Below are positions 28,379-32,774 of a DNA stretch of 64,000 nt, piece after piece (within the stretch, counting starts at the first letter, position 1; every line of letters starts with the position of its first letter). The stretch comes from Rhodospirillaceae bacterium. Its GTDB lineage: Bacteria; Pseudomonadota; Alphaproteobacteria; TMED109. The position numbers and the translations under genes were made by a program. Location of the stretch: positions 1 to 64,000 of the forward strand of contig CACHHO010000002.1 of assembly GCA_902579545.1 (NCBI GenBank), read 5' to 3'. The notes beneath the pieces are model-generated. The model ran no database searches. It saw nothing but the letters and a program-made list of their open reading frames with translations, and was not told the DNA's origin.

Positions 28379-29206
28379 ATGAATATATTATTTTTAGGAG
28401 ACCTGGTTGGACAAAAAAGTATTTTATATATTAAGAAAAATTTAGAGAATATTAAAAATAAATATAAAATAGATTTTGTGATAGTAAATGGTGAAAATGT
28501 TTTTTATGGCTATGGAATTACACCAGAATTTGCAGATGAATTATTAAGTAGTGGGGTTGATGTAATAAGTTCAGGAAATCATATATTTGATCAAAAAGAA
28601 ATAATTCCATACTTAGGTAGAAATAAGAAAGTTCTCAAGCCTTTTAACTTATCTTCCGCTTCTGCAGGTAATGGATATGGTTTGTTTAAAACTACTAATG
28701 GAAAAAACATCTTAGTTATAAACCTAATGTGTAACTTATTCATGAAAAAGTCAGATAATATATTTTATACAATAAACCTATTATTAAATAAATATATCCT
28801 GAAAAAAAATTGTGATGCAATTTTAATTGACTTACACGGTGAAGTGGCATCGGAAAAACAAGCTTTTGCAAACTTTATTGACGGTAGAGTAAGTGCTGTT
28901 ATAGGTACGCATACTCATGTGCCTACGTCGGACCTAAGAATTTTACCAAACGGAACGGCATATCAAACTGATGCAGGTATGTGTGGAGACTATGACTCGG
29001 TTATAGGTGGAGATAAAAACGCATGGATAGAAAAGTTTTTAGATGATACTTATTATAAAAAAATTGAAACAAGTTCAAAGGGAATAGCTTTATGTGGAGC
29101 TATTATTAAAATATGTGATAAAACTGGTTTATCAAGTATAGTTAAACAACTTATATTAGGAGACACAATTGAAAATAAAATACCTAATGAAAAAATCTTT
29201 TTATAG
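28379..29206 (+). CDS. ymdB: YmdB family metallophosphoesterase
   Basis: This 275-residue protein is of the YmdB/TIGR00282 family, cyclic-nucleotide phosphodiesterases in the few studied cases. Metal-binding motifs are seen in order: FLGDLVG, VNGENVFYGYG, SSGNHIFDQKE, LIDLHGE, IGTHTHVPTSD, and the family's TDAGMCGDYDSVIG. I start at the ATG at 28379, which places the first strand NILFLGD at the N-terminus; an in-frame start at 28337 lies within fthC. It is followed by yebC after 7 bases. Confidence 0.85.
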   Translation: MNILFLGDLVGQKSILYIKKNLENIKNKYKIDFVIVNGENVFYGYGITPEFADELLSSGVDVISSGNHIFDQKEIIPYLGRNKKVLKPFNLSSASAGNGYGLFKTTNGKNILVINLMCNLFMKKSDNIFYTINLLLNKYILKKNCDAILIDLHGEVASEKQAFANFIDGRVSAVIGTHTHVPTSDLRILPNGTAYQTDAGMCGDYDSVIGGDKNAWIEKFLDDTYYKKIETSSKGIALCGAIIKICDKTGLSSIVKQLILGDTIENKIPNEKIFL

Positions 29207-29213
29207 TTAATCT

Positions 29214-29930
29214 ATGGCCGGACATTCACAATTTAAAAATATAATGCATAGAAAAGGAGCCCAGGATGCAAAAAGATCTAAGGTATTTGCTAAACTTGCT
29301 CGAGAAATTACAGTTGCAGCTAAATCTGGAATTATTGACCCTAAGCAAAATCCTAGATTAAGAAATGCTATAGTAAATGCTAGGCATGAAAATATGCCTA
29401 ATGACAAAATAAATAAAGCTGTTCAAAAAGCTAGATCAAGTGAAGAAGGCAGTAATTATGAAGAAATTAAATATGAAGGAATTGGCAATAATGGTATTTC
29501 GTTAATTATAGAAACTCTAACAGATAATAGAAATAGGACAGCCTCTGAAATTAGATCAATTTTAAATAAAAATAATGGAAATTTAGGGGAATCAGGTTCT
29601 GTAACATTTAATTTTGAAAAGTTAGGAGAGATAACTTATAAAGAAACTAATATATCTAATGATGATTTTTTTGAGATTTCTGTTGAAAACGGAGCAACTG
29701 ATGTAATAGAAAAAGATAAAATGTTAATTGCTCTCTGCTCTCATGAAGTTTTTGGAAAATTAAGAGACAGCCTAGAAAATAAATTTGGAGAACCTTTAAA
29801 GGCAAAACTGATATGGAAGGCAATTAATTTTATTAATGCAGATGAGAATATAAAAAATAAAATAATGAAAACTATAGATTTATTAGAAGATAATGATGAT
29901 GTTCAAAATGTTTATACTAATGTAAAATAA
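29214..29930 (+). CDS. yebC: YebC/PmpR family regulatory or translation factor
   Basis: This 238-residue YebC has the diagnostic start AGHSQFKNIMHRKGAQDAKRSK and the later YEGIGNNGISLIIE, then GSVTFNF. The family was described as transcriptional regulators, and recent work links it to translation of proline-rich stretches. In most proteobacteria it is followed by ruvC, ruvA and ruvB; here a different RuvC-like gene follows, then ybgC. Confidence 0.95.
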   Translation: MAGHSQFKNIMHRKGAQDAKRSKVFAKLAREITVAAKSGIIDPKQNPRLRNAIVNARHENMPNDKINKAVQKARSSEEGSNYEEIKYEGIGNNGISLIIETLTDNRNRTASEIRSILNKNNGNLGESGSVTFNFEKLGEITYKETNISNDDFFEISVENGATDVIEKDKMLIALCSHEVFGKLRDSLENKFGEPLKAKLIWKAINFINADENIKNKIMKTIDLLEDNDDVQNVYTNVK

Positions 29931-29981
29931 TTCTTAAATAAACAATGATCATAGTAATTGAAATTATATAATGAGAAAAAA

Positions 29982-30452
29982 ATGATAATTTTAGGAGTAG
30001 ACCCAGGTAGTTCAGGAGGAATTGCTATAATCGAAAATAAAATAAATAGCTTACCTAAAATAATTTATGCGTCTAGAATGTCGGTAGTAAGTCTATTTGG
30101 AAAAAAAATAGTCGATGTACAAAAAATTTCTTATCACCTTAAACAATATAACATAGATGTAAGTATTATAGAAAAAGTTCATGCTATGCCTAGACAAGGA
30201 GTAACCTCAAGCTTTCAGTTTGGTAGAAGCTTTGGAGGAATAGAAGCTTTATGTTATCTTCATAGTAAAAGAGTAGATTATGTGGCACCTGCAACTTGGA
30301 AAAAAAATTTGGGACTTGGATCTTCTAAAAAAGAAAGTTTAGACATGGCTAGATTAAAATTTGGTAATTTAGAATTCTGGAACATTAAAAGCAATGATGG
30401 AATAGCCGAAGCCGCTCTTCTGACCCTATTTTGGTTAAATAAATATATTTAA
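29982..30452 (+). CDS. phage-type RuvC-like Holliday junction nuclease
   Basis: This 156-residue RNase-H fold protein has acidic residues at RuvC-like places: D7 in LGVDPGSSGG, E64 in SIIEKVHAM, and D139 with E143 in NDGIAEAAL. The segment MPRQGVTSSFQFGRSFG and the following APATWKK are typical of phage and prophage RuvC-like proteins rather than classical RuvC. It is in the locus where ruvC stands in relatives, between yebC and ybgC, but ruvA and ruvB are missing. The ATG at 29982 is preferred over an in-frame TTG at 29958, because the first strand then begins at the N-terminus. It may replace RuvC in junction resolution. Confidence 0.7.
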   Translation: MIILGVDPGSSGGIAIIENKINSLPKIIYASRMSVVSLFGKKIVDVQKISYHLKQYNIDVSIIEKVHAMPRQGVTSSFQFGRSFGGIEALCYLHSKRVDYVAPATWKKNLGLGSSKKESLDMARLKFGNLEFWNIKSNDGIAEAALLTLFWLNKYI

Positions 30453-30457
30453 TTAAA

Positions 30458-30871
30458 ATGTTATCCAATGTTTTTTCAGATAAAATTAAAGTCAGAGTTT
30501 ATTTTGAAGATACTGATGCAGGTGGAGTTGTTTACCACTCAAGATATTTAAATTTTGCTGAAAGAGCAAGAGCAGAGTTTTTAAGAAAACTTAAATTAAA
30601 TCAAACTGATATAAAAATGACATATGGTATAGTATTTGTAGTAAAGTCTCTTGAAGTTAATTATATTAGTTTTAGCCGTTTAGATGATAAAATTGAGGTA
30701 ATAACTGAATTAAAAGAAATTAACAGGGCAAAGTTGGTTTTTAACCATAGATTTTTAAAAGAAAAAACTAAAATTGCACAAATTTCAGTAAATATATGTT
30801 GTATCAATATTGCAGGAAAAGTTGCTAGAATACCAAAGTCCTTATATGATAAATTAATTTTAAAAGGATAA
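30458..30871 (+). CDS. ybgC: acyl-CoA thioesterase YbgC
   Basis: This 137-residue hot-dog thioesterase is the gene that regularly opens the tol-pal operon. The active site motif is VYFEDTDAGGVVYHSRYL with the catalytic Asp, followed by RARAEFLR. It hydrolyses acyl-CoA or acyl-ACP, perhaps in phospholipid metabolism at the envelope. It starts 5 bases after the RuvC-like gene and ends 4 bases before tolQ, with an AAAGGA ribosome site for tolQ at its end. Confidence 0.93.
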   Translation: MLSNVFSDKIKVRVYFEDTDAGGVVYHSRYLNFAERARAEFLRKLKLNQTDIKMTYGIVFVVKSLEVNYISFSRLDDKIEVITELKEINRAKLVFNHRFLKEKTKIAQISVNICCINIAGKVARIPKSLYDKLILKG

Positions 30872-30875
30872 CTTT

Positions 30876-31580
30876 ATGAATGAAGAATTATCAATAACAT
30901 CTAATCTAGATATAAGTATTTGGGGACTAATACTCCAAGCTGACTTAGTGGTGCGTATAGTTATGTTAGTTTTGCTTTTTCTATCGATATTTAGCTGGAG
31001 TATTATATTTGAAAAAATTACAAAGTTAAAAAAATTAAATAAGAAAGCTAAAAAGTTTGAAAATGATTTCTGGTCAGGGGTAAATATAGAAAAACTTCAT
31101 AAAAGCATAGAAAATACACCTACTCACCCAATGGAAGCAATTTTTGTTACAGGCATGAAAGAACTTGCATCTTCCACTACACAAAATTCTTCATCTAAAG
31201 ACATATCAATTATTGAAAAAAGAATAGAAAAAGCAATGTTTTCTACAATGAATAGAGAAATAGAAATATTAGAAAAAAATATAAATTTCCTAGCTACAAC
31301 AGGTTCCGCGGCTCCTTTTATCGGACTTTTTGGGACGGTTTGGGGAATTATGAATAGTTTTCAGTCTATAGCTACTGCCAAAAATACTTCTTTGGCAATA
31401 GTAGCTCCAGGTATAGCTGAGGCTTTGCTTGCAACAGCACTTGGTTTATTAGCTGCTATACCAGCTGTTATAGCATATAACAAAATTTCTACTGATTTAA
31501 ATAGATATAGTGGAGGTTTAGAAATATTTCTTAATGATCTTTCTAATATCTTATCAAGGCATATAAGTTCTAAAAAATAA
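30876..31580 (+). CDS. tolQ: Tol-Pal proton channel subunit TolQ
   Basis: This 234-residue inner-membrane protein has three helices: one near residues 22-42, and two in the second half containing NINFLATTGSAAPFIGLFGTV and the segment ALLATALGLLAAIPAV. TolQ and TolR form the proton-driven motor that energises TolA during outer membrane constriction. The stop overlaps the tolR ATG by 1 base. Confidence 0.95.
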   Translation: MNEELSITSNLDISIWGLILQADLVVRIVMLVLLFLSIFSWSIIFEKITKLKKLNKKAKKFENDFWSGVNIEKLHKSIENTPTHPMEAIFVTGMKELASSTTQNSSSKDISIIEKRIEKAMFSTMNREIEILEKNINFLATTGSAAPFIGLFGTVWGIMNSFQSIATAKNTSLAIVAPGIAEALLATALGLLAAIPAVIAYNKISTDLNRYSGGLEIFLNDLSNILSRHISSKK

Positions 31581-32003: not shown

Positions 32004-32774
32004 TTGGTTAAATTTATTATTATTTCTTTTGTTTTTCACATCACTCTAATATTTCTATTTGAATTTAATGTAATTGATTTAAATAAAAATAAACAACAAA
32101 CCATAAATGTTGGTATTTTAGAGACCCAAGATAAAACCATAAATCAAATAGAGCCTAAAAAAGAAAAAAAGGATAAAATAAGCAATAAACCTAAACCGCC
32201 TAAGCCTAAACCGCCTAAGCCTAAACCGCCTAAGCCTAAACCGCCTAAGCCTAAGGCACCAAAACCTATAAGTGAAAAAAATAAAAAAGCTATTACAAAA
32301 CAAGAGAACAAACTGTCTAATAATAAAAGATTTGATGATTTATTAAAAAATCTTGCAGAGGAGGAACTTCCTGAAAATAAACATAATAAAATTGAGCAGA
32401 CAATTGAAGATTTATCTCAAAAGAAGCTAACAAATGAGAAAAATGAAAAAGTAAAAAAAATAGAACTAAGTAAAATTGAAAAATTAATTATGCAACAAAT
32501 AGACGAAAATTGGTCTAGGCCACCTGGAATAAAAGTTTCTGAAAACCTAGTCATTAAAATGATCGTTTACTTAGACATTAACGGTAATGTTATAAATCTT
32601 GAAGTTCACAAAAAAACTCAAAAAGAAATTAGTAACAATAAAAATTTACTGCCCTACTTAGATTCCTCTATAAGAGCAATAAAAAAAGCTTCTCCGTTTG
32701 AAGGTTTGAAAAAAGATAGGTATAATATATGGAAGGAAATAATAATAAATTTTAAACCTATAGAAACTAAATGA
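32004..32774 (+). CDS. tolA: Tol-Pal bridging protein TolA
   Basis: This 256-residue TolA spans from the inner membrane to Pal. It has an N-terminal membrane helix with SFVFHITLIFLF, a basic proline-lysine region, a coiled stretch and a C-terminal TonB-like domain with ENWSRPPGIKVSE and VIKMIVYLDINGNV. The start is TTG at 32004, because the ATG at 31993 opens a different frame that ends after 18 codons. A GAGGG stretch lies just upstream. The proline region is made of four identical 15-base repeats. The gene overlaps tolB by 4 bases. Confidence 0.85.
   Translation: MVKFIIISFVFHITLIFLFEFNVIDLNKNKQQTINVGILETQDKTINQIEPKKEKKDKISNKPKPPKPKPPKPKPPKPKPPKPKAPKPISEKNKKAITKQENKLSNNKRFDDLLKNLAEEELPENKHNKIEQTIEDLSQKKLTNEKNEKVKKIELSKIEKLIMQQIDENWSRPPGIKVSENLVIKMIVYLDINGNVINLEVHKKTQKEISNNKNLLPYLDSSIRAIKKASPFEGLKKDRYNIWKEIIINFKPIETK
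32190..32249 (+). repeat. four perfect 15-base tandem repeats in tolA
   Basis: The unit CCTAAACCGCCTAAG occurs four times without a mismatch and encodes Pro-Lys-Pro-Pro-Lys each time; a partial fifth copy follows. It gives TolA an extended polyproline-like rod. Because the unit is a multiple of three, copy-number change alters length without breaking the frame. The identity of the copies, even at silent positions, suggests recent expansion. Confidence 0.9.

Follow-up and report, generated by a model that had tools for sequence, protein, structure and literature searches.

A marine-phage gene for a RuvC-like resolvase took the place of ruvC, ruvA and ruvB in the common ancestor of two alphaproteobacterial genera, a reading to which we give a probability of roughly 0.84. 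The gene lies in a 64,000-nucleotide stretch of DNA (the window), which is contig C2 of a 1.24-Mb MAG (67.6% complete, 79 contigs). It occupies 29982..30452 (+) and encodes a putative Holliday junction resolvase of 156 amino acids, counted from the ATG common to all relatives (an ORF list places the start at an upstream TTG, 29958); the assignment draws on a phrog_1770 profile, a tree, a structural model and dN/dS. Directly upstream is yebC (29214..29930, +; Pfam TACO1/YebC, E 3.2e-48), preceded by a ymdB-like phosphodiesterase gene (28379..29206, +) that holds this position in ruvCAB-bearing and displaced genomes alike. The ybgC thioesterase gene (30458..30871, +; Pfam 4HBT_2, E 5.9e-17) follows directly downstream, then the conserved right flank tolQ (30876..31580, +; Pfam MotA_ExbB, E 1.2e-35) and tolR-tolA-tolB-pal.

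One gene stands in place of three at this site, and the neighborhood is otherwise intact. Relatives that bear ruvCAB (L072 from G011, L073 from G001) share the order zapA-5FCL-ymdB-yebC-ruvC-ruvA-ruvB-ybgC-tolQ. The window and G005, a 97% complete genome, have the same order with a single phage-type gene instead of the three ruv genes, and the window has neither ruvA nor ruvB at its yebC-ybgC locus. A sequence-only reading of this DNA had described one 156-residue RuvC-like protein between yebC and ybgC, unaccompanied by ruvA or ruvB, and had proposed displacement of the classical resolvase. The locus is as described, and the family bears out the displacement: other genera keep yebC-ruvC-ruvA-ruvB-ybgC, with the swap in the window's genus (g1) and its sister genus (g5). 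We rejected the idea that the gene belongs to a prophage or its remnant, given the core operon on both sides, the absence of flanking phage genes and the same arrangement in both genera.

RuvABC is missing from both genera. We surveyed 28 genomes of the family, which are all the searched genomes of the order and the set within which ruvA was sought. Both ruvA and ruvB exceeded the cut-off in the same 16 genomes (genera g2, g3, g6, g7 and g8), and classical ruvC matches this distribution exactly. Neither ruvA nor ruvB was found in the six g1 genomes, the window's MAG included, or in the four g5 genomes, a set comprising two nearly complete genomes (97% and 91%) and eight partial ones. Nor did a search beyond the locus recover ruvA-ruvB or a classical ruvC in any g1 or g5 genome, and no RuvC-family protein besides the phage-type one was found in g5 genomes. 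Copies of the window protein, 66–74% identical, are present in three of the five other g1 genomes and all four g5 genomes. The remaining two g1 genomes have no yebC either, which means that their assemblies miss this region; the same is true of G010 in g7. For missing ruvAB, G003 (whose contig begins inside tolA) and G010, G016 and G017 (all without yebC) are uninformative. Public records carrying the protein include Rhodospirillaceae bacterium AG-919-G06, AG-919-A04, AG-422-C09 and AG-390-K05, as well as AG-900-F16, TMED93, NP101 and SP81.

Profile, identity and phylogeny all place the protein among viral sequences. Residues 1–154 align with the phrog_1770 profile, ‘Holliday junction resolvase’ (E 7.6e-25). 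The Pfam RuvC match is weaker (7.5e-5), and the curated ruvC model TIGR00228 gives 16.9 bits, short of its cut-off of 100.65. Identity is 53–56% to viral relatives on IMG/VR contigs versus 25–29% to alphaproteobacterial RuvC. The viral contig that we checked in detail (L042) has genes for a primase-helicase, small and large terminase subunits and a head-tail adaptor as neighbors, and is therefore a tailed phage. In a resolvase tree of 84 rows, host proteins of the window type group together (100/95) within a viral clade; support for the nesting is 98/86 with four viral rows and 100/99 for a wider group (23 viral rows, 10 host rows). Seven classical alphaproteobacterial RuvC proteins are set apart by a 100/100 branch. 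Judged by its full-length profile match, its position among viral proteins and its four acidic residues, the protein appears to belong to the phrog_1770 group. The sequence-only reading had likewise assigned it to the phage/prophage RuvC-like group, and the motifs it quoted are present; its tree position agrees, lying among RuvC-like proteins of viruses and well away from alphaproteobacterial RuvC. By curated cut-off, tree grouping and the lack of RuvAB in g1 and g5 genomes, it is not a classical RuvC. The gene is under purifying selection, with pairwise dN/dS of 0.04–0.35, many of the underlying dS values being near saturation.

The predicted structure has a resolvase fold with an intact active-site pattern. 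An AlphaFold model (mean pLDDT 93.5) is closest in the PDB to junction complexes of MOC1 (TM 0.83), followed by bacterial RuvC (~0.7) and the RuvC of Lactococcus phage bIL67 (0.64), so that the modeled fold lies nearer MOC1 than its characterized phage relative. Profile comparison also favors MOC1 (E 7e-25; best bacterial RuvC, 4.5e-7), a plant chloroplast resolvase of the RuvC superfamily that maintains the organelle genome and shares ~24% identity with the window protein. Four acidic residues, D7, E64, D139 and E143, which the sequence-only reading had recognized as kept, are invariant in eight chromosomal homologs. They match the catalytic residues D8, E71, D145 and D149 of bIL67 RuvC (PMC3864405) in order and last spacing, with a final Glu replacing Asp. 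The NtMOC1 tetrad is D116, D118, E175 and E258 (PMC7078210). D7, E64 and E143 align with MOC1, which also has Glu at the last place (E258), but Gly9 stands where the second N-terminal Asp (D118) would be, so the tetrad is not that of MOC1.

The region predicted to contact DNA also departs from MOC1. Codons E64–G81 (30171..30224, +; EKVHAMPRQGVTSSFQFG), located by the MOC1 alignment and by invariance in the eight chromosomal homologs, would encode the catalytic Glu and the loop that enters the junction in MOC1 and RuvC. The motif MPRQGVTSSFQFG, which had drawn notice in the sequence-only reading, falls on this loop, whose MOC1 counterpart inserts into the junction for base reading (PMC7078210). 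Met69 and Gln72 stand in place of the MOC1 base-recognition residues Y180, the intercalating Tyr, and D183. Since the loop lacks an intercalating aromatic residue, as does that of bIL67 RuvC, we predict a relaxed sequence preference.

These comparisons tie the protein to phage RuvC-like resolvases of the same sequence family (phrog_1770, including those of Salmonella phage epsilon15 and Planktothrix phage PaV-LD, with bIL67 RuvC the characterized member). All share the order and spacing of catalytic residues (D, E and two acids four apart), a base-reading loop without an aromatic residue and the lack of partner RuvAB genes. Unlike them, the window gene is fixed in the chromosome, where it stands within a core operon instead of ruvCAB and is under purifying selection. 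With classical proteobacterial RuvABC it shares the slot between yebC and ybgC/tolQ and presumably the final task of Holliday junction cutting; it differs in the viral lineage of its resolvase and in lacking RuvA and RuvB.

Bacterial RuvC works together with RuvAB. The phage enzyme of bIL67, by contrast, needs no RuvAB to cleave branched DNA, Holliday junctions included; by itself it raises the UV survival of an E. coli delta-ruvABC strain to 0.60, the ruv+ level, while inactive mutants leave survival near 0.002 (PMC3864405). Capture of one phage enzyme can thus leave a host with no need of ruvC, ruvA or ruvB. In our proposal, Holliday junction cutting passed to the captured gene, whose product would act as a dimer and without RuvAB. 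RuvA and RuvB would then have become dispensable, with ruvCAB lost afterwards; we found no transitional genome carrying both ruvCAB and a phage resolvase in the slot. Where branch migration is needed, RecG could drive it, or spontaneous migration might suffice. The sequence-only reading had suggested that branch migration was lost or moved to RecG: recG is indeed present in g1 and g5 genomes, making RecG-driven migration possible.

Similar exchanges appear elsewhere in the class. We surveyed 385 alphaproteobacterial genomes, scoring loss outside the window's family by ruvB, which was found in 346, and reading the gene after yebC in ruvB-less genomes. The window-type profile (E <= 1e-10) matched in only 8 of the 385 genomes, six of which, the window's included, lack ruvB. 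Two genomes (G271, G336) have a phage-type RuvC in another gene context and keep ruvB; these look like mobile copies and were left uncounted. In six other ruvB-less families (f98, f118, f31, f24, f141 and f50) the slot likewise holds a resolvase of phage type, within a common core order tkt-gap / zapA-5FCL-ymdB-yebC-slot-(ybgC)-tolQ. The exception is f50, where the order continues with tilS-ftsH and there are no tol genes.

The slot genes of these families are of three kinds. The slot gene of f98 and f118 encodes a phrog_1770 protein distinct from that of the window (E 6e-36 and 8e-22). In f31, f24 and f141 a PD-(D/E)XK gene of ~100 codons lies between yebC and tolQ (L135:7786-8124, L102:2263-2568 and L096:2265-2555, respectively) and matches phrog_2002 ‘Holliday junction resolvase’ (2.5e-10 and 2e-6). 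Marine phage contigs carry copies 66–75% identical to these proteins, whose predicted fold is weakly closest to archaeal Hjc. In f50 a 168-aa nuclease follows yebC (L099:2259-2762; also L101 and L103); it matches Pfam PDDEXK_15 ‘Phage putative PDDEXK endonuclease’ at 2.7e-22 and phrog_244 ‘RusA-like Holliday junction resolvase’ at 1.3e-13, and is ~45% identical to proteins of the jumbo phages PA5oct and SCTP-2.

We take f98 to be SAR11 because the 16S of one member (G321) has no mismatch at four SAR11 FISH probe sites. In the order of another f98 genome (G124), ruvB was found in none of 197 genomes, of which 149 have a completeness of 90% or more. The family f31, which we take to be HIMB59, includes a genome in one contig of 1,410,127 bases (G057). 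The window's own order is neither SAR11 nor HIMB59. In the SAR11 slot RuvC (L075-L077, L079), the C-terminal acidic pair lies in KKKDSNKAD, a spacing unlike the usual D-x-x-x-E/D. Four other genomes (G134, G145, G397 and G175; L089, L090, L094 and L117) have a classical RuvC after yebC and no ruvB match, possibly reflecting RuvC without RuvB or contig ends.

The replacements cannot all be traced to one event. In the 84-row tree, the three RuvC-like host lineages (window type, f98 and f118) fall in three different viral clades (INDEPENDENCE). An AU test rejected a single origin for all three (p 5e-51) and for the window type with f118 (p 1e-22). A single origin of the Hjc-like type in f31, f24 and f141 was not rejected (p = 0.07), so we counted one acquisition, though one to three are possible. 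Three RuvC-like origins and two PD-(D/E)XK types give at least five acquisitions. A species tree from flanking genes, made by a quick method and with weak support and base-composition skew, served solely to illustrate that displaced lineages lie beside ruvCAB-bearing ones. We consider it quite likely that streamlined marine Alphaproteobacteria, including SAR11, gave up the whole of RuvABC on at least five occasions, each time for a single phage resolvase that came to lie where ruvCAB had been. Three enzyme families would be involved: RuvC/MOC1-like on three occasions, Hjc-like PD-(D/E)XK on one to three and PDDEXK_15 on one. RuvABC would then not be a fixed core, and phages would be a recurrent source of one-gene substitutes.

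A different order of events would make the phage gene incidental: genome reduction removed ruvCAB first, and the newcomer is a passenger or has another job, such as debranching in phage infection or defense. Gene loss is expected in small AT-rich genomes, phage RuvC also cuts forks (PMC3864405), and no recognizable resolvase directly follows yebC in three genomes that gave no ruvB match and are nearly complete or in a single contig (G160, G326 and G237; L091, L111 and L112). We nevertheless find this account unlikely: what occupies the slot in seven families, through at least five acquisitions, is a resolvase and not some random gene, the window-type gene persists in both genera under purifying selection, and g5 has no other RuvC-family protein that we could find.

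The exact ruvC position, and the fact that the window protein detects the classical RuvC of g7 genomes at E 5e-6, could instead point to a fast-evolving native RuvC that lost RuvAB and merely resembles phage enzymes. Strongly supported nesting among viruses, with the same family's native RuvC across a long branch, argues against this, as do the two ranges of identity given above; on tree, identity and curated cut-off we rejected it as very improbable. Less probable still is an assembly or binning artefact that misplaced a viral gene or contig in a draft genome. The incompleteness of the window's MAG would allow one, but the same junctions recur in seven other genomes and in single-cell and metagenome records at 62–74% identity, and analogous arrangements occur in complete single-contig SAR11 genomes and the single-contig f31 genome. 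We rejected it for this locus and retain in-place replacement by a phage gene.

Replacement of a resolvase by a non-ortholog is known in principle. RecU replaces RuvC in Firmicutes, a non-orthologous displacement for which prophage supply was suggested (PMC1193525), and it works with RuvAB (PMC3864405). There, as here, a different nuclease took the resolvase role, but here the whole three-gene system is gone with a substitute in its place. In Wolbachia, RuvA is neutralized and RecG retained, while native ruvB and ruvC persist (PMC4224334); RuvAB branch migration is likewise dispensable in a reduced alphaproteobacterial genome that keeps RecG, but no phage resolvase is involved. In the open-licence literature we found no earlier report of whole-RuvABC loss with same-slot phage substitution in SAR11 or marine Alphaproteobacteria, recurrent or otherwise.

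RuvABC is treated as near-universal core machinery of bacteria. Its displacement in several small-genome marine groups, SAR11 included, suggests that some of the most abundant bacteria on Earth can dispense with it. If these organisms run chromosomal recombination on one phage-derived resolvase, dependence of junction resolution on RuvAB would be a contingent trait, SAR11 recombination would need explaining by a different enzyme, and phage genes able to stand in for three proteins could assist genome reduction. The recurrent displacements offer several independent natural experiments on what RuvAB is needed for.

We note two further features. The annotation of Bacteroides phage BS162P1 places a stretch similar to the Hjc-like protein within a ‘DNA endonuclease I-HmuI’ gene (L323:823-1815), perhaps a fusion or a misannotation. 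In the window, a perfect-looking 15-bp tandem repeat of 4.6 copies (32186-32254; TAAGCCTAAACCGCC) encodes a Pro-Lys-rich stretch of a TolA-like protein.
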